The translations under genes were made by a program, and so were the position numbers. DNA of 53,632 nt from an uncultured Gammaproteobacteria bacterium (GTDB taxonomy: Bacteria > Pseudomonadota > Gammaproteobacteria > SZUA-229), in assembly GCA_913065105.1 (NCBI GenBank), contig CAJXZZ010000009.1, positions 1 to 53,632 on the forward strand, read 5' to 3'. Shown piece after piece: positions 36,018 through 53,632 of this stretch (positions within the stretch are counted from its first letter, which is position 1; every line of letters begins with the position of its first letter). The notes beneath the pieces are model-generated. The model searched no databases. It was not told the DNA's origin and saw only the letters and a program-made list of their open reading frames with translations.

Positions 36018-38444
<2,427 letters not shown>

Positions 38445-38531: not shown

Positions 38532-39611
38532 TTAACTTTTTGTTATTAATCGTCCATGTTCCACGTGGAACATTTTTTTTATCGGCCAGGCAGATAAATC
38601 AATTTGTTGTTTTTCTATAGCAGTGAGAAATAGCTGAATATTCATTGAAGAAAGAACAGAAAGAATTAATTGACGATGATTAATATCAAGTTCTGCTGGT
38701 AAATCATCATATAACAACACACAAGGTTTATTAGTCGCTTCTGTAAACTGCATTGCCTGCGCCAATCGCATTAGTGCAACTAATGTTTTTTGCTGACCTC
38801 GAGATATTCCGGTTTGAGCAGACTGCCCGTTTACCTTTATAATAATTTCAGCTCTGTGTGGACCATATGAAGTAAACCCTTTTAAACGGTCTTTTTGTAT
38901 ATTTTCCTCTAATAACTGAATAATATCTTTATCTTTAGTCCATCCTCGTCTGTACTCAATACTAACAATATCATCTAAGAAAAATTGTTCAGTTAAATGA
39001 TTAAAATAAGGTTTTAGTTTTTCAAAATAATTGTGCCTTAATTGGTCAATATAATGTGCTGTATTACTGATTTCAGTATTCCATAACTGACAGATATTAT
39101 GTTTTTGTTTAGATTTTAGAGCCGCATTTCTTTGCATTAATGCTTTTTTAAAACGTTGCCATGCTCTAAAAAAACCATGTTCCACGTGGAACACTCCCCA
39201 GTCTAAGTATTGTCTACGCTCAGAAGGACTACCTGTTATTAATTTATAACTATCTGGATGGATAGCTAAAACAGGAAATTGAGCTGCAATATCTGATACA
39301 CGTTTTATGGGCTGTTTATTAACACGTATTTGAGATTTATTAAGACTACGCCGGATACCAAGGGGAATAGCCTGTTGATCAGATGATTGTATGCTAGCAA
39401 CAAGTTGTAGATAGGGGGTCTGTCTAAGAATTAGATCTGAAACATGTTGAGTCCGAAAAGAACGTACATGGCTAAGATAATATATAGCTTCCAATAAACT
39501 AGTTTTACCGGAAGCATTATCACCCCAAATTAAATTTACCCCTTGAATAGGGGTAAATTCCACATTTTTAAGATTACGAAAATTTGTTATTTGAAGCTGC
39601 TTTAATAGCAT
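38532..39611 (-). CDS. recF: DNA replication and repair protein RecF
   Basis: 359 aa from the ATG at 39611 (MLLKQLQITNFRNL, the usual RecF start); the TTG at 39638 would add nine residues. Walker A is GDNASGKT (30-37); the signature 'ISRGQQKTLVALMRLAQA' and Walker B 'CVLLYDDLPAELD' follow. It loads RecA at gapped DNA with RecO and RecR. Two parS palindromes are embedded in its coding sequence, both encoding FHVEH. Confidence 0.96.
   Translation of the reverse strand: MLLKQLQITNFRNLKNVEFTPIQGVNLIWGDNASGKTSLLEAIYYLSHVRSFRTQHVSDLILRQTPYLQLVASIQSSDQQAIPLGIRRSLNKSQIRVNKQPIKRVSDIAAQFPVLAIHPDSYKLITGSPSERRQYLDWGVFHVEHGFFRAWQRFKKALMQRNAALKSKQKHNICQLWNTEISNTAHYIDQLRHNYFEKLKPYFNHLTEQFFLDDIVSIEYRRGWTKDKDIIQLLEENIQKDRLKGFTSYGPHRAEIIIKVNGQSAQTGISRGQQKTLVALMRLAQAMQFTEATNKPCVLLYDDLPAELDINHRQLILSVLSSMNIQLFLTAIEKQQIDLSAWPIKKMFHVEHGRLITKS
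38557..38572. other. parS (ParB-binding) site 1, in recF
   Basis: TGTTCCACGTGGAACA is a perfect 16-bp palindrome identical to the parS sequence known from Pseudomonas and related gammaproteobacteria; the 18 bp at 38556-38573 are also palindromic. It lies about 3 kb from the dnaA gene, as expected for origin-proximal parS. In the recF frame it is read as 'MFHVEH'. Confidence 0.88.
39178..39193. other. parS (ParB-binding) site 2, in recF
   Basis: A second copy of the same 16-bp palindrome TGTTCCACGTGGAACA, 621 bp from the first, in the middle of recF. It is read in the recF frame as 'VFHVEH'. Clusters of two or more parS near oriC are common; together the two copies strongly suggest a ParB loading site. 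Confidence 0.88.
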
Positions 39612-39673
39612 TTTTAGGTAGCTAAATAGTACATACAATCACGCAACACCCATGATTATAAAACAATCTACAT

Positions 39674-40774
39674 TTATAAACGCATAGGCATAATGACATA
39701 TTTGCAGTCTTCCTGATCAGGATAAGTTAATAAAAAGCTGCTATTACTATCACGGAGTGCTGCTTGTACAATTTCAGAGCTGGCAACATTTAATACATCA
39801 AGCATGTAATTAACATTGAAACCAATCTCAATATCATCACCGTCATAAACCACCTCAAGTTCTACATCTGCTTCTTCCTGATCTGGATTTTGTGCCTGTA
39901 ATTTGATTAGATTTTTTTCTAAAGTTAAACGTATACCACGATATTTTTCGTTAGATAAAATTGATGCCCTAATTAAGGCCTGGCGCAATTGATCACGATC
40001 TGCACTGATTACATTATCGCCATCAGTAGGAATCACGCGATTATAATCTGGAAAACGCCCATCAATAAGTTTTGAAGTTAAACGTATTTGATTAAAATCA
40101 ACCTGTAGATGGTTACTACCGAAAGTGATTTTAACCATATCTTCAGAATCACTAAGTAAACGAACTAGTTCCAAAACACCTTTTCTAGGTAAAATCACTT
40201 GTTTAATATCTGCGATATCTGCATTAGTCAATTTTTCACAGTAAGCTAATCGATGACCATCTGTAGCAACTGCACGTAAATAATTAGAACTTACCTCTAG
40301 CATTAAACCGTTTAGATAATAACGGACATCCTGTTGTGCCATAGCAAAAGCCGTTTTATCAATAATATCTCGTAGTGTTTTTTGTGTTATTTCAAAGTCA
40401 TAAACGCTATTAATTGTATCTAGCGATGGAAAATCATTAGCAGGTAAAGTGGTTAATGAAAAACGACTACGACCCGATTGAACAAGTGCTTTGTTATTCC
40501 TAACAGTAAAATTAATTAAAGCCTCGTTAGGTAAAGATTTACAAATATCTAATAATTTACGCGCAGGCACAGTGATTTCACCAGGCTCATCTACTACCAT
40601 GCCTATTTGGCTAACTAATTCTATTTCTAAATCGGTTGCTGTAAGAGTTAATGAATTTTCAGTAGTTCGTATTAAAACATTAGAAAGTGCAGGCATGGTT
40701 TGTCTTTTTTCTACTGCACCGATGATCTGCTGGAGTGGGTCTAGCAAAGTTTCCTTTTCAATTTGGAATTTCAT
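39674..40774 (-). CDS. dnaN: DNA polymerase III beta sliding clamp
   Basis: 366 aa, the standard length. Three repeats of the clamp fold are recognisable; 'MKFQIEKETLLDPLQQIIGAVEKRQTMPALSNVLI' at the start and 'YVIMPMRL' at the C-terminus are characteristic. The hydrophobic clamp-loading pocket residues lie in the last two domains. It follows dnaA on the same strand, 270 bp downstream, and precedes recF by 62 bp. Confidence 0.98.
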   Translation of the reverse strand: MKFQIEKETLLDPLQQIIGAVEKRQTMPALSNVLIRTTENSLTLTATDLEIELVSQIGMVVDEPGEITVPARKLLDICKSLPNEALINFTVRNNKALVQSGRSRFSLTTLPANDFPSLDTINSVYDFEITQKTLRDIIDKTAFAMAQQDVRYYLNGLMLEVSSNYLRAVATDGHRLAYCEKLTNADIADIKQVILPRKGVLELVRLLSDSEDMVKITFGSNHLQVDFNQIRLTSKLIDGRFPDYNRVIPTDGDNVISADRDQLRQALIRASILSNEKYRGIRLTLEKNLIKLQAQNPDQEEADVELEVVYDGDDIEIGFNVNYMLDVLNVASSEIVQAALRDSNSSFLLTYPDQEDCKYVIMPMRL

Positions 40775-41044
40775 CGTGTTACCTATATATAGTTTTTATC
40801 TTTTATATATATTTTATTATTATAGTTAAGTAACACATTTTTCTGTGGGTAACTATTAAATACATATATAAATCAATAAGTTAAGTTAGTTATTTTGTTC
40901 TTATAAAAGTTATATTAGTTGCGTTTTAACTGTTTATGGTTTGTGGATAAGTTTTTAAATGCTTTTTGTTTACATCTTATAACGAACAAACTCACATTTT
41001 ATTCACAGCTTTCTATTTATATTTTATAACCTGTTAATAAGTTG
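40775..41044. other. dnaA-dnaN intergenic region: AT-rich, DnaA boxes, candidate oriC
   Basis: This non-coding stretch is very AT-rich (around 40780-40830 it is nearly pure A/T, a possible unwinding element). It contains three DnaA-box-like 9-mers: TGTGGATAA at 40942-40950 (perfect, reverse of TTATCCACA), TGTGGGTAA at 40844-40852 (one mismatch) and TTATTCACA at 40999-41007 (one mismatch). It must also hold the dnaN promoter or leader. The other side of dnaA carries a perfect box too, so I cannot say which of the two is the functional origin. Confidence 0.6.
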
Positions 41045-42406
41045 TTAATTACTTAATATACGGATCATGTTTTTGTAGTCTTCATCAATCCTATTATCCA
41101 GTTCTCGTAATTCAGCGATCTTTCTACACCCATGTAATACCGTTGTGTGGTCGCGTCCGCCAAATGCAGCACCGATTTCAGGCAGGCTATGACTAGTTAA
41201 TTCTTTTGATAGAGCCATTGCTAATTGTCTGGGACGTGTAATAGAACGGCTTCGTCGATTTGAATGTAAATCAGAAGTACGTATTTTGTAATATTCAGCA
41301 ACCGTTTTTTGAATATTATCAATAGTTATTGTACGTTCCTGTAATGCTATTAAATCACGTAATGCTTCTTTGGCAAAATCGAGAGTAATAGGCGAGGCAG
41401 TAAAATTGGCTGTTGCCATAACACGGCGAAAAGCGCCTTCAAGTTCTCGTATGTTAGAACGAATACGTTTAGCGATAAAAAAAGCAACTTCGCTGGGCAA
41501 ATCAATATTCGCCTCTTCAGCTTTTTTTTGCAAGATAGCAACACGAGTTTCTAATTCTGGCGGTTCTATGCAAACGGGTAATCCCCAACCAAAACGTGAA
41601 CGTAAACGCTCTTCCAGTCCCTCCACTTCTTTAGGGTAACGGTCGCAGGTCAATATAATCTGACTGCCGCCTTCAAGTAAAGCATTGAAAGTATGAAAAA
41701 ATTCCTCTTGTGAACGCTCTTTACCGGCAAAGAACTGGATGTCATCAACTAAAATAGCATCAAGTGAACGATAGTGTTGTTTGAAAGCATCAATGCTATT
41801 GTGCTGCAAAGCTTTTACCATGTGCCCCACAAACCGTTCGGAATGAATATAAGTAATACGTGCATTAGGTTTATGTTTTAGCATCATATTACCCACAGCA
41901 TGCATCAAATGGGTCTTACCTAAACCTACTCCGCCATAGAAAAACAAAGGGTTATAAGCACTTCCAGGGTTTTCTGCAACTTGTATTGAAGCAGCTTTTG
42001 CGAGTTGATTTGATTTACCCTCAACAAAATTATCAAATGTAAATGAAGGATTTAAGTTGTGTTCAACTAACGAGTTGTTTGATGGTGGCTTATTATTTGT
42101 AAGAAAGGATTCTGTTTTAACCGTATTACTGGTAACTACCGGCTTATCATTATGTATATTTTTCTGACTACCTATCTCAACAAATAATTGTGTAGTTTGT
42201 TTAGGATCAAGATCAGATAAGATTGTTTGAATCTTATCCTGAAAATTTTGTTTTACCCAATCTTGTACAAAACGGTTAGGTGCTAACAGTTTAATCTGAT
42301 TATTTTCTTCGATGATTTGTAATGGTCGAATCCAGGTATTCAATTGTTGGTCAGTGAGCTCCTGTTCTAGACGTTGTAAGCAACTGGACCACATTGTTTT
42401 GCTCAC
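41045..42406 (-). CDS. dnaA: Chromosomal replication initiator DnaA
   Basis: 453 aa. The start is a GTG at 42406 with a GAGG sequence about 10 bp upstream; an ATG at 42394 is possible but less well placed. Domain I (about 1-85) begins '[30 protein letters not shown]'-like as in other DnaA. The AAA+ domain has Walker A 'GVGLGKTHL' and Walker B 'ILVDDIQFF'. Domain IV contains the DnaA signature '[20 protein letters not shown]'. It initiates replication at oriC. Confidence 0.98.
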
Positions 42407-42688
42407 TACAGACTAACCTCACGGATAAAATTAAAGAATAGTTACTAATTTAGAGTAATGATTCTGGGAAAATTGGGAGATTGATTGTATACCTGTTAAA
42501 CGGACTTATCCACAAGAGAACTATAATATTGCATATTGTAATCTCAGAATATGTATAGATCTCGCGTAAAATGGTTATAATTTAACCAGCAAAAAAACAT
42601 TGATAATTTAACAAATTGTTTTTGACTAAATGGCTTAGGGCACGTAAAATGCGCGGTTCGCTGAAACATTGATTTATTGGATTTAGTA
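42407..42688. other. rpmH-dnaA intergenic region with one perfect DnaA box
   Basis: 282 bp with no gene. A perfect DnaA box TTATCCACA lies at 42506-42514. In Pseudomonas the functional oriC lies between rpmH and dnaA, so this is a second origin candidate, but only one clear box was found. The divergent promoters of dnaA (leftwards) and rpmH (rightwards) must also lie here; TATAAT at 42576-42581 is a candidate -10 for rpmH. Confidence 0.5.
42576..42581 (+). promoter_or_regulatory. Candidate -10 element for rpmH-rnpA
   Basis: A perfect TATAAT about 108 bp upstream of the rpmH start. No convincing -35 hexamer is seen at the usual 17-bp distance, so this is tentative. Confidence 0.3.
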
Positions 42689-42823
42689 ATGAAAAGAACA
42701 TTTCAACCAAGTTGTTTAAAACGCGCCAGATCTCATGGCTTTCGTGCTCGTAGTCGTACTGTTGGTGGGCGTCGAGTGTTAAAAGCACGCCGTGCAAAAG
42801 GACGTCATAGCTTAACTGTTTAA
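42689..42823 (+). CDS. rpmH: 50S ribosomal protein L34
   Basis: 44 aa, the normal L34 length. It reads '[19 protein letters not shown]', with '[19 protein letters not shown]' at the end. Residue 9 is Cys where Lys/Asn is usual, and the stretch between 'GFRAR' and 'GGRR' differs from the common MATKNGR form; both look like normal family variation. It starts with ATG at 42689 and is followed by rnpA after 47 bp, the universal rpmH-rnpA order. Confidence 0.96.
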
Positions 42824-42870
42824 TTTTCTAGTACTGAAAAATTTTAGTACAGAAAAATCCGGAAGAAGCT

Positions 42871-43239
42871 ATGTCCCTGGCGTGTTTAACTAAACATGTC
42901 AGATTATTAAAAGCAGCGGATTATAAATACGTTTTTGATGACCCTGTCCGCTCTTCAGATCGCTATTTCACTATTTTAGCACGCCCTAATAATTTGCTTA
43001 CAGCACGTTTGGGTATGGCTTTTTCAAAGAAAAAAGTAAAATTGTCGGTAGCTCGAAATCGATTAAAACGTATTTCTCGAGAAAGTTTTCGATTGTCTCA
43101 GTTAGGACAAAATAAGTTTAGTGCTGATTATGTGGTTTTGGCTGGTGCACAGTGTGTAGAGGCTACTAATCAGCAGTTATTTAATTCACTGGAAAATCAC
43201 TGGTTACAATTGAATAAAAAATGCGAAAATTTATCGTAA
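42871..43239 (+). CDS. rnpA: Ribonuclease P protein component
   Basis: 122 aa. The RNR basic motif is visible as 'VARNRLKRISRESFR' (about 67-81), with the preceding 'ARLGMAFSKKKVKLS'. It binds the RNase P RNA in tRNA 5' maturation. The ATG at 42871 has GGAAG upstream. Its 3' end overlaps yidD by 19 bp. Confidence 0.95.
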   Translation: MSLACLTKHVRLLKAADYKYVFDDPVRSSDRYFTILARPNNLLTARLGMAFSKKKVKLSVARNRLKRISRESFRLSQLGQNKFSADYVVLAGAQCVEATNQQLFNSLENHWLQLNKKCENLS

Positions 43240-45175: not shown

Positions 45176-46498
45176 ATGTATAGTGATACCATCGCCGCCA
45201 TCGCAACTCCTGCAGGCCAGGGCGGCGTAGGTATCGTTCGTGTTTCAGGCACCGGCGCCGCTGATGTCGCAAAGAAAATTTCTGGTTTATGCCCTGCTCC
45301 ACGTTACGTACACTACGGGGTCTTTAGCGATAAAGATAAAGTCACGATTGATAGTGGCTTAACACTCTATTTTAAAAAACCCTTTTCTTTTACTGGCGAA
45401 GATGTCATTGAGTTTCATGCTCACGGCGGGCCGGTTGTTTTAGATATTTTATTAAAAGAAATACTACAACACGATGTTCGGCCGGCAAGAGCGGGTGAAT
45501 TTACGGAACGTGCTTTTTTAAATGACAAAATAGATTTAGCACAGGCTGAAGCGATAGCCGATTTGATTGCTGCGGATAGTGAACAGGCAGCGCGTGCAGC
45601 AATACGATCTATGCAGGGCGAATTTTCAGCCGTGATTCAACAGCTAGTAGAAGATTTAACGCAATTACGTATTTATGTTGAGTCAGCTTTAGATTTTCCT
45701 GAAGAAGAAATAGATTTTTTGGCAGACGATGCCATTTCAGAAAAACTAGGTTCAGTAAAACAAAAATTACAGAAAGTAAAATCCTCAGCGCAACAGGGCC
45801 GTTTGTTAAAAGAAGGAATGACCGTTGTAATAGCAGGAAAACCAAATGCCGGAAAATCAAGCCTGTTAAATCAACTAGCGGGACAGGATTCGGCGATCGT
45901 TACTGATGTTCCAGGAACAACGCGCGATATTTTACGCGAACATATTCAAATAGATGGTTTGCCTTTGCACATTATAGATACGGCAGGCCTGCGCGACAGT
46001 GATGACGTGGTTGAGCAAGAAGGTGTAAAACGCGCAAAACAAATGATTGAAAAAGCGGACCGCGTTTTATTTGTTGTTGATATTAATGATGATGACCAAT
46101 CAATAATGCAAACGTTGCCAGAAAATATAGGTAGAACTACCATATATAATAAAATTGATAAGATTAATCGTGTTGCTGAGATGCAAGGTCAGGATATCTA
46201 TCTTTCAGCAAAAACAGGCCATGGCATTGACCTGTTAAAGCAGCATTTAAAAAATTGCATGGGTTATCAACAAAAAACTGAAGGACAATTCATCGCGCGT
46301 CGTCGACATCTGGATGCAATTGATGCGGCGGAAGAACATTTACAGATCGCCGATAGAAACTTGCATGAATTAAAGGCAGGTGAATTACTCGCCGAAGAAC
46401 TTCGTTTTGCACAGGAAGCGCTTTCATCCATAACGGGTGAGTTTAGTAGTGATGATTTATTGGGGAGAATTTTTTCAGATTTTTGTATTGGAAAATAA
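45176..46498 (+). CDS. mnmE: tRNA modification GTPase MnmE
   Basis: 440 aa. The N-terminal tetrahydrofolate-binding domain begins '[22 protein letters not shown]'. The G domain has '[12 protein letters not shown]' (G1), 'GTTRD' (G2), 'DTAGLRD' (G3) and 'NKIDK' (G4). The C-terminus ends 'DFCIGK', with the conserved functional Cys. It works with MnmG at the wobble uridine of tRNA. Here mnmG is not next but about 6.7 kb away. Confidence 0.97.
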
Positions 46499-46556
46499 GG
46501 CACCAAAAATTATTTAGCGGCCAGGTATTTTTATATCGTAAAAACATAAATAAATA

Positions 46557-47426
46557 ATGACAGACTCAACTAAAAAATCCGCTATTTTATTAATTCATTG
46601 TTTGGACAAGCCCGGTCTCGTTGTTGCGATTACGGATTTTATCCATAATAACGGCGGTAATATTTTATATCTTGATCAGCATGTCGATAGTGAACGCGGC
46701 GTTTTTTTCATGCGTATTGAATGGGACCTGAAAAAATTTGCTATCCAGCAAGATAAGATCGCCGAGTATTTTGAAACGTTGGTTGCTTCACGTTATCAGA
46801 TGACAGCACAATTACATTTTTCTGACACGAAATTACGTATGGCATTGTTTGTATCAAAAATGTCACATTGTTTTTATGATCTACTTGCGCGTTATGAGAG
46901 TGGTGAATTAAATGTTGAGATACCGGTAATTATTAGCAATCACGCCGACCTTCAACATGTAGCAGAACGGCTAGATATTGATTTTCACTGTATACCCGTC
47001 ACTAAAAACAATAAACAACAACAAGAAGAAAAACAGAAAGAGCTGCTACAGCAACATCATATCGACTTTATTGTACTGGCGCGTTACATGCAGGTATTAA
47101 GTGATGATTTTGTGAAATGTTACCCACAACGGATTATAAATATCCATCACTCTTTTCTGCCGGCATTCCCCGGAGGCCGTCCTTATCACAGCGCCTATGA
47201 ACGCGGCGTGAAAATCATAGGTGCAACTAGTCATTACGTAACCGCTGAACTAGATGCTGGCCCGATTATTGAGCAGGATGTGGTTCACGTTAGTCATAAA
47301 GATTCAGTTGAAGATATGGTGCGCATTGGCCGTGATCTAGAGAAAATTGTGCTTGCGCGCGCGGTCAGACATCATGTGCATCATGATTTACTGGTTTACG
47401 AGAACCGTACTGTTGTATTTGAATAG
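46557..47426 (+). CDS. purU: Formyltetrahydrofolate deformylase
   Basis: 289 aa. An N-terminal ACT domain ('ILLIHCLDKPGLVVAITDFIHNNGGNILYLDQHVD') is followed by the formyltransferase-like catalytic domain with 'IINIHHSFLPAFPGG' (Asn, His) and 'VTAELDAGPIIEQDVV' (Asp), the expected catalytic set. It releases formate from 10-formyl-tetrahydrofolate. It starts 58 bp after mnmE and converges on soeC. Confidence 0.96.
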   Translation: MTDSTKKSAILLIHCLDKPGLVVAITDFIHNNGGNILYLDQHVDSERGVFFMRIEWDLKKFAIQQDKIAEYFETLVASRYQMTAQLHFSDTKLRMALFVSKMSHCFYDLLARYESGELNVEIPVIISNHADLQHVAERLDIDFHCIPVTKNNKQQQEEKQKELLQQHHIDFIVLARYMQVLSDDFVKCYPQRIINIHHSFLPAFPGGRPYHSAYERGVKIIGATSHYVTAELDAGPIIEQDVVHVSHKDSVEDMVRIGRDLEKIVLARAVRHHVHHDLLVYENRTVVFE

Positions 47427-47472
47427 TAAAAATATTTCTACCGCAGTGGCGCAAAGAGGCTGAGTTGTTTTT

Positions 47473-47495
47473 GTTGTTCGCCATAGGTGAACAAC
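47473..47495. terminator. Hairpin between the convergent purU and soeC genes
   Basis: GTTGTTCGCC (47473-47482) and GGTGAACAAC (47486-47495) form a 10-bp stem (one G-T wobble) with a 3-nt loop, midway between two convergent stop codons. A T-run (47466-47472) lies on its left side, so termination of the leftward (soe) transcript is the better fit. It sits inside a weak inverted repeat, 47439-47459 against 47507-47530. Confidence 0.5.
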
Positions 47496-47536
47496 CAGTT
47501 AATTTTTCTCTTTGGTCTTCCGCGGCAAAATAGTCT

Positions 47537-48514
47537 TTAAATTGTTTGGTAATATAGATTTTGTGGATGATTTGCCTGTGCAAAAAAGAACCAGCGCTCA
47601 GCGATTAAACCGACATATTGCACGATAAACGCCAAAGCAAACAGACCAAACATATCACTAGCTAGTGCGACTGAAAGTAACAGCACGGGCACGACAAAAA
47701 CCATCACTAAAAACGCCCACTTTATGCTTTTAAACAAAGCAGGTTTTGCACCGTGAAAATATTCGCGGGTATTAAAGGAGCCGCCCATTGAACCCTGTGC
47801 TTTTTGTTTGATATTTTTATGACGGATGCCGATAGCCGAGCTTAGATTTGATTTATATTTTATTTTTGAGTTTCGAATTAAAGCGGCACTGCGCGTTATA
47901 AATGCGAACGCGGTCAGAACAATAGCCCAGCCACCGTAAAAATTAATTAAATCTGATTCAACAAAGGCAGCAAAAGCGGCGCTTAATGCAAAGCCAGAAG
48001 CCATGCCAAGCAGCGTGTAATTTATAACCGTAAGTGGTGTTGACCATTCCTGTAAAAATTTAATGCAGGCATAAATCATAGCGGTGCAAATAAATAATGA
48101 AAAAGCTAATACCGTATTGATCATGCCAACCAGTAAAGATAGATCTACGATGAAATCTGCGCTAAGTGCAAACAACACAGGGTTCCATCCAGAGATATGT
48201 ATCATTGCATAAATAAAAGTGGTGCCCATAAAAGCCGGCAATACGATTACTTCACGTGATAACCAGGACGTTTTCCACTTTGCTGCAGAGCGCCAGGCCC
48301 GTTCTGGATGACCCAGATGGAAGAAAGAAGCAATCAGCCCCGCCACTAAAAATACTAGTGCAAGTAAACTGCCGTAACCATAAAAACCAGGAGAGTCCTG
48401 TACCGGCAATACTTTAATGACGGAATAAAGCTGGCCGGTATATAAAGCTAAAAACAGCCCCTGACCTACCCCAATTAATGTAGTCAGAAAAATTACTGAA
48501 AAAGCAGGATGCAT
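47537..48514 (-). CDS. soeC: SoeC, membrane anchor of sulfite dehydrogenase (DmsC/NrfD type)
   Basis: 325 aa, with about eight hydrophobic segments, matching the DmsC family. 'LLALVFLVAGLIASFFHLGHPERAWRSAAKWKTSWLSREVI' near residue 50-90 carries the family's conserved 'HLGxPxRAxR' and 'SWLSRE' motifs. It anchors the SoeAB subunits to the inner membrane and passes electrons to quinone. It is the last gene of the soeABC run; 61 bp after soeB. Confidence 0.88.
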   Translation of the reverse strand: MHPAFSVIFLTTLIGVGQGLFLALYTGQLYSVIKVLPVQDSPGFYGYGSLLALVFLVAGLIASFFHLGHPERAWRSAAKWKTSWLSREVIVLPAFMGTTFIYAMIHISGWNPVLFALSADFIVDLSLLVGMINTVLAFSLFICTAMIYACIKFLQEWSTPLTVINYTLLGMASGFALSAAFAAFVESDLINFYGGWAIVLTAFAFITRSAALIRNSKIKYKSNLSSAIGIRHKNIKQKAQGSMGGSFNTREYFHGAKPALFKSIKWAFLVMVFVVPVLLLSVALASDMFGLFALAFIVQYVGLIAERWFFFAQANHPQNLYYQTI

Positions 48515-48574
48515 AGTTATAGTCTCTTTAATTTATTGAAGATGATCATATTTATAAAATGCCTTGTATAAAGA

Positions 48575-49306
48575 CTACCAACTCATAACATCGTCGAGTG
48601 TTTGTTCGTCATCACCCGGCATAGGTAACTGACGTTCTTTATTAAGCGGATTATCAACACGGGTAAGCTCATCTTTGTGAATAGTGATGTTGGCTTTACG
48701 GCGAGGTAAATAGTGGTTCGCTGGTTTTGTGCCCCACTCTGGCATTAATTGATAACCACCGTTATCACGAATTTGTTCTGATACGATTGAGTCAGGATCA
48801 TTTACATCACCAAATAGACGAGCGCTGGTCGGACACGCTAAGACACATGCCGGTTTACGTTCAGCTTCTGGTAATGTTTCATCATAGATACGATCAACAC
48901 ATAAGGTGCATTTTTTCATTACTTTCTGGTTTTCATCGATCTCGCGGGCGCCATATGGGCAGGCCCATGAACAATATTTACAACCGATGCATTTGTCATA
49001 ATCGACGAGAACAATACCGTCTTCTTCGCGCTTATAACTGGCACCCGTCGGACAAACGGGAACGCAGGGTGGCTCCTCACAATGCAGACAGCTTTTTGGA
49101 AAATGAACGGTTTGTGTATTAGGGAATTCGCCAATTTCAAAAGTTTGTACACGATTAAAAAAAGTTCCTGTCGGGTCCTTATCGTAAGGATTATAGTCAG
49201 ACATAAAACCAGCGGTACCGGAGGTGTTCCACTCCTTACAACTGGTAACGCAGGCATGACAGCCAACGCACACATTTAAATCGATAACTAAAGCAAGTTG
49301 AGTCAT
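48575..49306 (-). CDS. soeB: SoeB, iron-sulfur subunit of sulfite dehydrogenase
   Basis: 243 aa with four [4Fe-4S] binding motif groups: C13-x2-C16-x2-C19-x3-C23 ('CVGCHACVTSC'), 'CLHCEEPPCVPVCPTG', 'CIGCKYCSWACPYGA' and 'CTLCVDRIYDE...ACVLACPTSA'. No Tat signal, so it stays in the cytoplasm with SoeA. It transfers electrons from SoeA to the membrane subunit. It begins 9 bp after the soeA stop. Confidence 0.9.
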   Translation of the reverse strand: MTQLALVIDLNVCVGCHACVTSCKEWNTSGTAGFMSDYNPYDKDPTGTFFNRVQTFEIGEFPNTQTVHFPKSCLHCEEPPCVPVCPTGASYKREEDGIVLVDYDKCIGCKYCSWACPYGAREIDENQKVMKKCTLCVDRIYDETLPEAERKPACVLACPTSARLFGDVNDPDSIVSEQIRDNGGYQLMPEWGTKPANHYLPRRKANITIHKDELTRVDNPLNKERQLPMPGDDEQTLDDVMSW

Positions 49307-49315
49307 ATGTAATTC

Positions 49316-52231
49316 CTAAGCCTTCTTACCAGCAAAATATTTTAACCAGCGGCCACTCATAAATTTATTGCGAGTCAGGGTGCCAGGTGTTTTTGCGCCT
49401 TCTTTAAACTGTGGGAAAGTTTCTTCGGGCTCGCCCTCTTCGGCGGGATAAATTTTTACGCGTACGTCATACCATCCGGCCTGTCCGGTTACCGGATCAG
49501 AGTTAGATAAGTGATCGCCGGCTTCGCTCGAAGGCAATTCTTCGCTGATCAAGTGATTTAACAAAAAGCCTTTTTGTGATTCGTTGGCGTTTTTCTTTAA
49601 GCCCCAGGTGCCCCTGGCTTTACCAATGGCGTTCCATGTCCATACCGTTCCTGGCTCGACCGCTTCAGAATGACGACACATGCAACGTACTTTTCCGTGC
49701 ATAGATTCCACCCACATCCATTGGCCATCAGCAATGCCAGCGGCAATGGCCGTTTTGGTATTCACGTGCAGATAATTATGGGTGTGAATTTGACGTAACC
49801 AGGCATTTTGTGAATCCCATGAATGGTACATCGCCATTGGGCGTTGGGTAATGGCATTTAATGGATACTGACGTAAATCGGTTTGTTGCGCCTCAAGTGT
49901 GTCGGAGTAAAAGGGTAAAGGATCAAAATGTGTATTGATGCGATCACGTAAATGGTCGGGCGGTTGTTTGCCGTCGGATTTTCCTTGTGCGGCGAGACGG
50001 AATTTTTGTAACACTTCACTATAAATATGAATGTTAATGGGCTCTGCATAGCGCGTTAGGCTATGGCGTTTCGCCCATTCCAGATAACCCTGATTCCAGT
50101 TGCGCATGTACTGATAAGATTTAGGCAGTTCATACTGAAAAACACAGTTGTTTTTTTCGTACATCTCCCATTGATTCGGGTTGGGCTCCCCTTTCATGAA
50201 TTTTTCACCACCCTTTCCACGCCAACCGGCAAGAAAACCAATACCAGAACCTGGCGCGGTTTCGTAATTGATCACGAAGTCAGGATAATCGCGGTATTTA
50301 CGTTCTCCCTGTTCATTAACAAATGCAGGCAGTTTTAAGCGTGAACCCAGCTCAATAATCACTTCCTGAAAAGGTTTGCACTCACCGGTTGGAGGTACAA
50401 CAGGAATACGGACTGAATCGACAGGACCATCAAATTCTGAAATTGGGCGATCTAACATCGACATTACATCATGGCGTTCCAGATAAGTGGTATCGGGCAA
50501 TACCAGATCGGCAAAGGCAACCATTTCTGACTGGAAGGCATCACAAACAATCAAAAAAGGTATTTTATATTCGCCCTGCTCGTCTTTATCGTTGAGCATG
50601 TCGCGCACGCTCTGTGTATTCATGGTTGAATTCCATGCCATATTGGACATGAAAATCATCATGGTATCGATGGGATATGGATCACCACGCCAGGCATTGG
50701 TAATGGCGTTTTGCATTAAGCCATGAACGGACAAAGGGTGTTCCCAGGAAAAAGCTTTATCAAGACGAATGGGCCCGCCTTTCTCATCCACAAACAGATC
50801 GTCCGGGTCTGCCGGCCAGCCAAGTGGCATACCATTTAATGGCGTATTCGGTTGAACATCATCCCAGCTTGTCGGCGTTTTTGCGCAGGGAGGGATCGGT
50901 CTTGGGAAAGGCGCTTTGTGGCGGAAGCCACCAGGGCGATCAATCGTACCCAAAATACTCATCAATATAGACATGCCGCGAATGGTCTGGAAACCATTAG
51001 AATGTGCCGCCAGTCCACGCATGGCATGGAAAGACACCGGGTTGCCTTTTATGTGGTCATGTTCTTTGCCCCAGGTATCGGTCCACGAAATGGGCAGCTC
51101 GATCTGTTCATCACGCGCAGTGATGCCCATTTCATAGGCAAGGCGTTTGATGGTTTCAACCGGAATCCCGGTGATGTCAGCGGCCCATTCAGGCGTGTAA
51201 TCTTTAACTCGGTCGACCAGTAACTGGAAGGCGGGTTTTACCGGAGTACCATCATCGAGTTTAAATTCACCTAACAGATAAGGGTCTGAACCTTCGGTGT
51301 GCATAGAAATAGGTTTATTGAGATCTCTGTCCCACCAGAGTTTGTTTTGTGCATCAAAGCACCCTTCTTCTTTTGGTACTTCAAAGCGCACAAACATGCC
51401 ATGTTCGCTAGAGCCCTCATCCATGTTGACCAGTTCGGCGGAGTTTGTGTAATTTACAAGAAATTCACGGTCATATAGACCCTGTTTGATGATTTCATTA
51501 ATCAGCGCTAAAAATAATGCGCCATCAGTACCCGGTTTTATCGGTACCCATTCATCGGCGATACCGGCATAACCGCTGCGTACCGGGTTAATAGCAATGA
51601 ATTTTCCACCCTGGCGTTTAAACTTGGCTAAAGCGATTTTCATTGGGTTAGAGTGGTGATCTTCAGCGGTTCCAATCATAATGAACAGCTTGGAACGCTC
51701 GAGATCAGGGCCGCCAAACTCCCAAAAAGAGCCACCGATAGTGTAAATCATGCCAGCGGCCATATTCACTGAACACAAGCCGCCATGTGCCGCGTAGTTT
51801 GGTGTGCCAAACTGTTTTGAAAATAAACCGGTTAAAGCCTGCATCTGATCTCGACCAGTAAACAAGGCGAATTTTTTCGGGTCAGTGGCGCGAATTTTGC
51901 TTAGGCGTTCTTCCATAATGGAAAAAGCCTTGTCCCAGGAAATTTCAACAAATTCATTATCACCACGGTTGCTATCAGGTTTGCGCATTAGTGGTTTAGT
52001 CAGACGCGCAGGGGAGTATTGTTTCATGATGCCCGATGCACCTTTGGCACAGATTACGCCTTTATTTAGTGGGTGCTCAGGGTTGCCCTGAATATAACGA
52101 ACTTCGCCATCACGCAGCGTGACTCGAATACCGCAGCGACAGGCACACATATAACAAGTCGTGTTTTTGGTCTCTATACGACTATTTTCATCCGTCGCTT
52201 TTGACGTCGGGTTATGTACCGGTTGTGACAT
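49316..52231 (-). CDS. soeA: SoeA, molybdopterin catalytic subunit of sulfite dehydrogenase (quinone)
   Basis: 971 aa, DMSO-reductase family. The N-terminal [4Fe-4S] site is C26-x2-C29-x3-C33-x27-C61. The Mo-bis-MGD binding domains follow ('GGLCSVNMAAGMIYTIGG' carries a probable Mo-ligand Cys near residue 152; 'HAMRGLAAHSNGFQTIRGMSILMSILGTIDRPGG' and the C-terminal MopB cap are typical). There is no twin-arginine signal, in line with the cytoplasmic SoeABC of purple sulfur bacteria such as Allochromatium, as opposed to periplasmic relatives. Assignment to sulfite rather than polysulfide or tetrathionate rests on this and on soxXA in the same window. Start ATG at 52231. Confidence 0.86.
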   Translation of the reverse strand: MSQPVHNPTSKATDENSRIETKNTTCYMCACRCGIRVTLRDGEVRYIQGNPEHPLNKGVICAKGASGIMKQYSPARLTKPLMRKPDSNRGDNEFVEISWDKAFSIMEERLSKIRATDPKKFALFTGRDQMQALTGLFSKQFGTPNYAAHGGLCSVNMAAGMIYTIGGSFWEFGGPDLERSKLFIMIGTAEDHHSNPMKIALAKFKRQGGKFIAINPVRSGYAGIADEWVPIKPGTDGALFLALINEIIKQGLYDREFLVNYTNSAELVNMDEGSSEHGMFVRFEVPKEEGCFDAQNKLWWDRDLNKPISMHTEGSDPYLLGEFKLDDGTPVKPAFQLLVDRVKDYTPEWAADITGIPVETIKRLAYEMGITARDEQIELPISWTDTWGKEHDHIKGNPVSFHAMRGLAAHSNGFQTIRGMSILMSILGTIDRPGGFRHKAPFPRPIPPCAKTPTSWDDVQPNTPLNGMPLGWPADPDDLFVDEKGGPIRLDKAFSWEHPLSVHGLMQNAITNAWRGDPYPIDTMMIFMSNMAWNSTMNTQSVRDMLNDKDEQGEYKIPFLIVCDAFQSEMVAFADLVLPDTTYLERHDVMSMLDRPISEFDGPVDSVRIPVVPPTGECKPFQEVIIELGSRLKLPAFVNEQGERKYRDYPDFVINYETAPGSGIGFLAGWRGKGGEKFMKGEPNPNQWEMYEKNNCVFQYELPKSYQYMRNWNQGYLEWAKRHSLTRYAEPINIHIYSEVLQKFRLAAQGKSDGKQPPDHLRDRINTHFDPLPFYSDTLEAQQTDLRQYPLNAITQRPMAMYHSWDSQNAWLRQIHTHNYLHVNTKTAIAAGIADGQWMWVESMHGKVRCMCRHSEAVEPGTVWTWNAIGKARGTWGLKKNANESQKGFLLNHLISEELPSSEAGDHLSNSDPVTGQAGWYDVRVKIYPAEEGEPEETFPQFKEGAKTPGTLTRNKFMSGRWLKYFAGKKA

Positions 52232-52748
52232 AGTTTTTCCTGATGCGCGGTAAAAGTTGGCTAGGCGTTATCAATTTAATAATATCAAGTGATTACTGTA
52301 CTTGAGCTGATGGCGTTTGGCTAATCAGCATTATTAAAGCAACCATAAAATATTCTAATATTCTAATATAAAGACAGCTTATGGTTTGTAATATAGCCGT
52401 AAACAAAGCGATATAGCTGTTATTCATATGGGATATAGCAAAAAATTTTTAAACAAATCAGTTTTAAAGTAAGACTGGCTTTAATAATAAAGAGGGTTAA
52501 AGAATTCCAATAAAGTTGATTAATTATCAATAGCTTAAACGAATTTCTAAAATGAATTTTAGATTGTCTCAATATGTAACGTATTGATTTTACTTCCTAT
52601 AATATAAGTGTGTCATTTTTTCGACAAAGCTATATTTTGTGCTATATATAAAACATAAGATGTAAAAAATTATGGCTGTTAGCAATAACTGCTGTATAGA
52701 AATGAGAAAAAATTTAAATGGGACTTTAAATTTTGTTGGACAAAGAGA
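52232..52748. promoter_or_regulatory. 517-bp divergent regulatory region between soeA and a small plus-strand gene
   Basis: No gene is seen here. The heptamer ATATAGC occurs three times in the same direction at 52391, 52411 and 52433 (start-to-start 20 and 22 bp, about two helical turns), and its reverse complement GCTATAT occurs at 52629 and 52641. An 8-bp tandem repeat TATTCTAA is at 52351-52366. A sigma-70-like pair TGTAAC (52575) and TATAAT (52598), 17-bp spacer, could serve the rightward gene. This looks like a control region for soeABC, but the regulator is unknown. Confidence 0.5.
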
Positions 52749-52949
52749 ATGAATTTAAATCAAAATAGAAGCTGGTTTTTAGGCATATTTGCATTTGTTG
52801 CGTTGTTTGCCGGATCCAGTTTATTTATTACGAATGAACTAGGCGACCAGCCGGGTGCCATTCAATTTTCTGGTTTAACCGACGCAGATATCGACATGAT
52901 TATGTCAGTTAAAGCTAAAATGCAAGCGGCTAAAATTCAGCCCGATTAG
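52749..52949 (+). CDS. Small membrane-anchored protein of unknown function
   Basis: 66 aa. It has one hydrophobic segment (about 9-27, 'FLGIFAFVALFAGSSLFI'), which may be an uncleaved anchor or a signal, followed by a short mainly hydrophilic helix rich in Asp, Ala and Lys ('GLTDADIDMIMSVKAKMQAAKIQPD'). AAAGAGA lies just upstream of the ATG. It is not recognised. It lies between the soeA control region and mnmG. It could be translated; the length makes this less certain. Confidence 0.55.
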   Translation: MNLNQNRSWFLGIFAFVALFAGSSLFITNELGDQPGAIQFSGLTDADIDMIMSVKAKMQAAKIQPD

Positions 52950-53157
52950 TTTTATCTGCAATGCGTGAGTACTTTTAAACGTCTTTCTTGGTGGGCAAAG
53001 GTAGCTAAAACGACACGTATCTGCGCATCTATAGTGCCAGATGAATCAATATCATCTACTTCTGTTAAGTACTTTTGGCCTAAGCTTTAGGTTAAATCAC
53101 TGATTTGTATTATCCAGGTTTGTAATATAATAGGCAGCCTTAATCTTGAGGTTGTTA

Positions 53158-53632
53158 ATGTTTTATTCTGATTCTTTTGATGTAATTGTTATTGGCGGTG
53201 GCCACGCAGGCACAGAAGCCGCGCTTGCTGCTGCGCGTATGGGTGTAAAAACTCTGCTGCTGACACATAACATTGAAACCCTGGGCCAGATGAGCTGTAA
53301 TCCCGCTATCGGTGGTATCGGTAAAGGCCATCTGGTAAAAGAAATTGACGCTATGGGCGGCGTCATGGCAAAAGCGGCCGATCGTGGCGGCATTCAGTTT
53401 CGTATTTTAAACAGTCGTAAAGGCCCAGCTGTTCGTGCTACCCGTGCGCAGGCTGACCGTGTTTTATACAAAGCGGCGGTTCGAGAAGTTTTAGAAAATC
53501 AACCCAATCTTTCTTTGTTTCAACAAGCGGTAGACGATTTAATTGTAGAAACCATCAATGGTGAGCAACAAGTGACGGGTGTTGTTACTCAGATGGGGCT
53601 TAAGTTCAAAGCAAAAGCCGTCGTGTTAACGG
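53158..53632 (+). CDS. mnmG: tRNA uridine-5-carboxymethylaminomethyl modification enzyme MnmG, N-terminal part
   Basis: The first 158 residues are visible; the gene runs off the right edge. The FAD-binding '[22 protein letters not shown]' begins at residue 9, followed by '[28 protein letters not shown]' and '[21 protein letters not shown]', all strictly typical of MnmG/GidA. It works with MnmE at wobble uridines. The ATG at 53158 is chosen with GAGG upstream. Confidence 0.97.

Follow-up and report, generated by a model that had tools for sequence, protein, structure and literature searches.

Genes and Sites at the Locus

The window, i.e., the whole analyzed stretch of 53,632 bp from an uncultured gammaproteobacterium, includes recF and its usual neighbors, with two copies of one 16-mer located inside recF. 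The features of this region are:

36018..38444, minus strand: open reading frame (ORF), gyrB, downstream of recF in the order dnaA-dnaN-recF-gyrB
38532..39638, minus strand: recF, host of both sites; best TIGR00611 match in the genome (E 4.4e-108), with solved RecF relatives
38557..38572: parS site 2, TGTTCCACGTGGAACA, palindromic over all 16 bp; codes for FHVEH at RecF residues 357-361, within KKMFHVEHGRL near the C terminus
39178..39193: parS site 1, TGTTCCACGTGGAACA, palindromic over all 16 bp; codes for FHVEH at RecF residues 150-154, within WGVFHVEHGFF
39674..40774, minus strand: ORF, dnaN, upstream of recF
40775..41044: gap between dnaA and dnaN, 79% A+T, candidate origin with two exact and two one-mismatch DnaA-box-like words
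41045..42406, minus strand: ORF, dnaA

The ORFs named gyrB, dnaN, and dnaA are presumed to be these genes on the basis of their sequences and gene order. The listed recF frame opens at TTG; the ATG of codon 10 (39609-39611) appears the likelier start, because the protein would then begin with MLLKQLQITNF. Both sites are read as TG TTC CAC GTG GAA CA(T) and are separated by 621 bp, or 207 codons, in the same recF frame. Since TGTTCCACGTGGAACA is a palindrome, the location of recF on the minus strand alters nothing.

The gap between dnaA and dnaN is a candidate for oriC because of its DnaA-box-like words, which were found with what we take to be the DnaA-box consensus. It is located about 1.6-2.5 kb away from the parS sites. 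The gap upstream of dnaA (42407-42871) contains one exact DnaA box. In the region 45176-53632, the ORFs that we take to be mnmE (45176-46498) and mnmG (from 53146) flank a presumed formyltetrahydrofolate-deformylase-like ORF and three minus-strand ORFs resembling a molybdopterin oxidoreductase with iron-sulfur and membrane subunits.

A single ParB was found in the genome, on contig 21 (TIGR00180, E 6.7e-56), and is related to solved ParB chains. Its gene directly follows a ParA-like and an RsmG-like ORF, which we take to be parA and rsmG, forming the order rsmG-parA-parB. The usual order mnmG-rsmG-parA-parB may continue onward on contig 21. Both parA and parB, as expected for a ParABS system, are present in the same genome.

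Rarity and Identity of the 16-Mer

The scan of the 53,632-bp window for TGTTCCACGTGGAACA found the two exact copies listed above and no further match even at up to three mismatches. At this threshold, shuffled windows gave a mean of 0.20 matches, and two matches were reached in 2 of 100 shuffles. The draft genome (3,055,959 bp, 147 contigs), searched with up to two mismatches, also contains just two exact copies, both in recF, whereas about 0.0007 exact copies of one 16-mer are expected by chance per 3 Mb. One additional copy, with two mismatches, lies between the listed ORFs (at least 80 aa) on contig 6. About 0.8 such matches are due by chance, and this copy was judged one of them.

The first-pass annotation of this DNA had described a 16-mer occurring twice, 621 bp apart, in the reading frame of recF and encoding FHVEH. 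The exact matches in the window and in the genome agree with this description, which leaves the minus strand of recF unmentioned, and the word is not common in the genome. The annotation had further identified the word as parS and the sites as origin-proximal. Indeed, the word is letter-identical to parS2 of Pseudomonas aeruginosa, from which parS1 differs by its last base alone (PMC4368675), and the sites are located in recF near the likely origin, as in P. aeruginosa. Location in the origin region, here a candidate one, and rarity elsewhere are both expected for a chromosomal parS, and both were found.

Distribution of the Sites in Gammaproteobacteria

The strict 14-base core of the motif, GTTYCACGTGRAAC, was found in 231 of 274 genomes of the class, compared with 10 of 274 for a reversed control. 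The commonest state, found in 165 genomes, is two copies of the core. A profile search of the 274 genomes for RecF yielded 224 above the cut-off. The best-scoring 149 RecFs, belonging to 148 of these 224 genomes, were analyzed together with the RecF of the window as an additional one; lower-scoring RecFs are outside this 149-gene set. In the 148 genomes, 240 of the 300 strict parS copies are located in recF, and 103 genomes have all of their strict copies inside this gene (per-genome core counts behind this tally were transcribed by hand).

Sites were sought in stop-to-stop frames at up to 15 or 20 codons from the aligned place. At up to one mismatch, both sites were found in 115 of the best-scoring 149 RecFs, site 1 only in 12, site 2 only in 11, and neither in 11; these counts, like all counts of genomes and RecFs given here, are not independent because the rows are related. 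The spacing of the 115 pairs is 612-651 bp and in each case a multiple of 3. An additional 80 loci, found partly through peptide patterns, are outside all counts; their peptide frequencies are biased because the patterns included DWGVFHVE.

Two genomes deviate in copy number. In the stretch 52314-52948 on contig 23 of G347, a single recF has three strict cores (52314, 52539, and 52935) inside it or at its end, the middle one at a different position, as judged from coordinates only. Genome G271 has two good recF genes, on contigs 39 and 40, and each of its four parS cores is located in recF; it is possibly a mixed assembly.

That 115 of 149 relatives have both of these codon positions filled at up to one mismatch bears on whether the two 16-mers are coincidental. 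Two shuffled windows did reach two matches, at a threshold of three mismatches that is far looser than exact identity. Against this, two exact copies are found in one gene of a 3-Mb draft genome and none elsewhere, and the comparison with relatives already refutes coincidence, the probability of which we regard as negligible.

Synonymous Codons under the Sites

Among the 149 best-scoring RecFs of the class, the GC content of recF ranges from 29 to 72%. Normalized synonymous entropy was scored for 172 alignment columns, each with at least 60 rows sharing a degenerate residue. The median is 0.94, the seven lowest values are 0.09-0.23, and the eighth is 0.67. All seven lowest columns, namely V149, H151, V152, E153, H358, V359, and E360, are under the two parS sites; the last two bases of the V149 codon open site 1. 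The entropy for F150 and F357 is 0.999, with TTC and TTT about equally used. The third base is free in these codons because parS has a degenerate C/T at this position. It is also free in H361, where it falls outside parS.

The peptide FHV[EK] is encoded with CAC-GTG-RAA in 122 of 125 cases at site 1 and in 118 of 123 at site 2, compared with 8.2 and 8.7 expected from the codon usage of each gene. The corresponding P values, 7.1e-152 and 1.5e-140, should not be read literally, as they assume independence of rows that are related. The fourth residue, E or K, is encoded by GAA or AAA in nearly all rows, matching the degenerate G/A of parS. Site 1 has H, P, Q, or R as the fifth residue, and site 2 has H, Q, or R; the first base of the codon for this residue is C in 125/125 and 123/123 rows, respectively. 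Codons and residues are largely limited to those that parS can encode; thus, the variation of RecF here stays inside the limits set by the DNA word. In these 149 RecFs the word is conserved beyond coding need, as expected for chromosomal parS. The low synonymous variety under the sites upholds the earlier suggestion that the recF codons serve both functions, and in relatives the synonymous codons for FHVEH are held fixed rather than random. Of the two outcomes that the annotation had named as refuting its reading, a 16-mer common across the genome and random synonymous codons at FHVEH, neither was observed.

Joint Presence of the Peptide and the DNA Site

The peptide FHV[EK] and parS at up to one mismatch were tallied jointly for 205 RecFs, including 149 of the class set, 50 of the order set, the RecF of the window, and five named ones. 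At site 1, both were found in 137 RecFs, neither in 64, parS alone in 3, and the peptide alone in 1. At site 2, the respective numbers are 151, 47, 5, and 2. That a RecF with parS also has the peptide is in part built into the tally, and the informative result is that the peptide rarely occurs without parS. It does so in L257 at site 1 and in L249 and L270 at site 2. In the parS-less rows of the codon test, FHV[EK] was found in 0/22 cases at site 1 and 0/23 at site 2.

On the RecF tree (FastTree, site columns excluded), the fewest changes are 18 and 20 for the two sites. Twelve supported independent pairs on this tree gave a median p of 0.004 for site 2. For site 1 the pair test reached no significance (median p 0.22), as the six pairs are too few.

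The outgroup comprised 36 RecFs, taken from a set of 45 genomes that belong to the same phylum but to other classes; it is rich in one family (f200), and its alignment is less certain. The parS core was found within three mismatches near either place in 0 of 36 outgroup RecFs. None of the 36 has FH at site 1, and 4 of 36 have FHV at site 2. Most simply, both sites would have originated inside the class or at its base. Since the tree cannot tell gain from loss, this class-level origin of the pair is what we infer. At site 2, parS may have been placed on an F-x-V frame that already existed.

FHVEH could also be conserved as a functional peptide of RecF, the palindrome being its by-product. FHVEH is common in the RecFs of the class sample, four outgroup RecFs have FHV at site 2, and L270, from a ParB-lacking genome, keeps FHVK there. 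However, synonymous codons are fixed at both sites far above the expected numbers; the fifth residue varies whereas the first base of its codon stays C; FH at site 1 is absent from all 36 RecFs outside the class; and where parS is gone, the peptide is nearly always gone as well, as in Escherichia coli and Pasteurella (see below). The fixed codons and the near absence of the peptide without parS led us to reject the protein-motif reading, which we consider highly improbable.

Most likely, judging from these alignments, the DNA site shaped the peptide rather than the reverse. The first-pass annotation had proposed that the site was recruited from a conserved peptide. This proposal does not stand, as FHV[EK] almost never occurs without parS and FH is missing at site 1 outside the class. 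A small part of it may hold at site 2, because of the four outgroup RecFs with FHV.

Sites in Genomes Lacking ParB

The order that includes genome G252 is represented by 119 genomes, and a strong ParB match (E below 1e-45) was found in 87 of them. The core motif is present in 86 of these 87 genomes vs. 2 of the 32 others. The group analyzed for RecF as lacking ParB of the chromosomal type consists of 24 of 25 eligible genomes, G353 being left out. Genome G352 was placed in this group because its sole strong ParB match is on contig 2, and seven other genomes of the group have weak ParB matches alone (E 2e-36 or worse). An exact site was found in 0/24 of these RecFs, and nearly all of them have an altered peptide. 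At one mismatch, site 1 was found in 0/24 and site 2 in 2/24, both with CAC changed to CGC. The above-mentioned L270 belongs to this group; it still encodes FHVK at the place of site 2, although the parS word is absent there.

For the ParB-bearing RecFs of the same order, site 1 was found at up to one mismatch in 11/27 and site 2 in 26/27; therefore, site 1 has been lost in ParB-bearing genomes as well. In ten ParB-bearing RecFs (L242, L248, L252, L254-L256, L258-L260, and L265), site 1 is gone and site 2 has one mismatch, CAT GTG for CAC GTG. In the 149-gene class set, neither site was found at up to one mismatch in 10 of the 145 RecFs from genomes with a ParB match.

The peptides at sites 1 and 2 are FHNEP and FTVEK in E. 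coli K-12, FHNEP and FSVEH in Proteus, and FHHHN and FRVEE in Pasteurella. According to a review, in the part available, ParB is absent from E. coli and Pasteurella (PMC7022226). Site 2 alone is kept in Aeromonas recF and site 1 alone in Acinetobacter recF. Within one genus, the sites have two and one mismatches in G173 (L163), where no ParB match was found, and both are intact in G027 (L190), where ParB is present. The motif was also found in 4 of 12 genomes of the class without a ParB match (G130, G131, G215, and G217). Their assemblies consist of 130-300 contigs, and a parB gene was likely missed in them. Together, these sequence comparisons indicate that the recF sites and their peptide tend to decay where ParB is missing.

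The co-occurrence with ParB also bears on a palindrome kept for some other role in DNA or RNA, such as binding of another CACGTG-recognizing regulator, a modification site, or a hairpin in recF mRNA. A perfect palindrome might suit other binders, and binding of ParB in the window organism is itself a prediction. Nevertheless, the match to parS extends over the full 16 bp, relatives vary at the degenerate C/T and G/A positions of parS, and the motif accompanies strong ParB matches within one order. Moreover, P. aeruginosa ParB binds the identical word (PMC4368675). Retention for another role thus has, in our estimation, a very small chance of being correct.

Proposed Explanation and Its Meaning

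We are highly confident of the explanation as a whole: the two words would be the chromosomal parS of this gammaproteobacterium, with selection at the DNA level fixing codons and residues of recF, and with drift where ParB is absent. The single ParB encoded on contig 21 most likely binds both palindromes. It would load at the sites as a clamp and spread across the recF region, and ParA would then segregate the newly copied origin region. As the sites are in frame, selection on the DNA word would fix the codons and hence F-H-V-(E/K)-(H/P/Q/R) at two places of RecF, where most variation would stay among residues compatible with the parS consensus. After loss of chromosomal ParB the constraint would be gone, and codons and peptide would drift toward degraded remnants, such as those in E. 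coli recF.

A broader statement seems probable to us, with somewhat less assurance: the two recF codon positions have been a standard centromere of the class since early, the DNA site wrote the protein, with RecF varying at these places almost exclusively among residues available to parS, and decayed remnants of both sites persist in recF of E. coli and Pasteurella. In 103 of 148 genomes, every strict parS copy is at the recF positions.

The recF sites would provide a clean case in which, throughout much of a bacterial class, the sequence of a protein is dictated by a non-coding function of DNA; lineages without chromosomal ParB serve as natural controls. They are also a warning that the conserved RecF peptide should not be taken for a functional protein motif. 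In practice, the sites may serve as a simple marker for an active chromosomal ParABS system and also for its loss. Why two recF copies persist, although one origin-near parS suffices in P. aeruginosa, is approachable by synonymous recoding.

Comparison with Known Systems

Among the solved relatives of the ParB of the window genome are chains of Noc, a ParB relative acting at NBS. Noc binds another palindrome than parS, and the window word has the parS form.

The word is a 16-bp palindrome of the TGTTNCACGTGAAACA type, as expected for chromosomal parS and as in the parS/Spo0J system of Bacillus subtilis, where the sites are also mostly in the ori domain (PMC7022226). Relative to TGTTNCACGTGAAACA as given there, it has C at position 6, which is allowed, and G at position 11, like P. 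aeruginosa parS2. B. subtilis has ten parS sites, eight of them within the ori domain (PMC7022226), vs. two exact sites in the window genome.

In the literature searched, partly available and excluding the comparative survey of Livny et al. (2007), we found neither a codon-level treatment of the recF sites nor the comparative evidence for DNA-level selection and for remnants of the E. coli type.

The pair of parS sites in recF is already known from P. aeruginosa, and the window is a further case. In the available parts of the cited reports, the P. aeruginosa sites nearest to the origin, or parS1 and parS2 by name, are located in recF (PMC3909081; PMC5521831). ParB of this species has the best affinity for parS2 and parS3, followed by parS1 and parS4; a single site of the parS1-4 cluster is enough for segregation in the laboratory; and mutants of intragenic sites, designed to be protein-neutral, had weakened or abolished ParB binding (PMC4368675). 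P. aeruginosa has eight more putative sites (parS3-10), whereas in the window genome just the two recF copies have zero mismatches. ParB binding was measured in P. aeruginosa for the identical word, while the window organism is known here from its sequence. Because both the location of parS1 and parS2 in recF and their ParB binding are published, the arrangement in the window is a case of a known kind: as in P. aeruginosa, two parS sites lie in recF near oriC, here the candidate origin, with the 16-mer of parS2.
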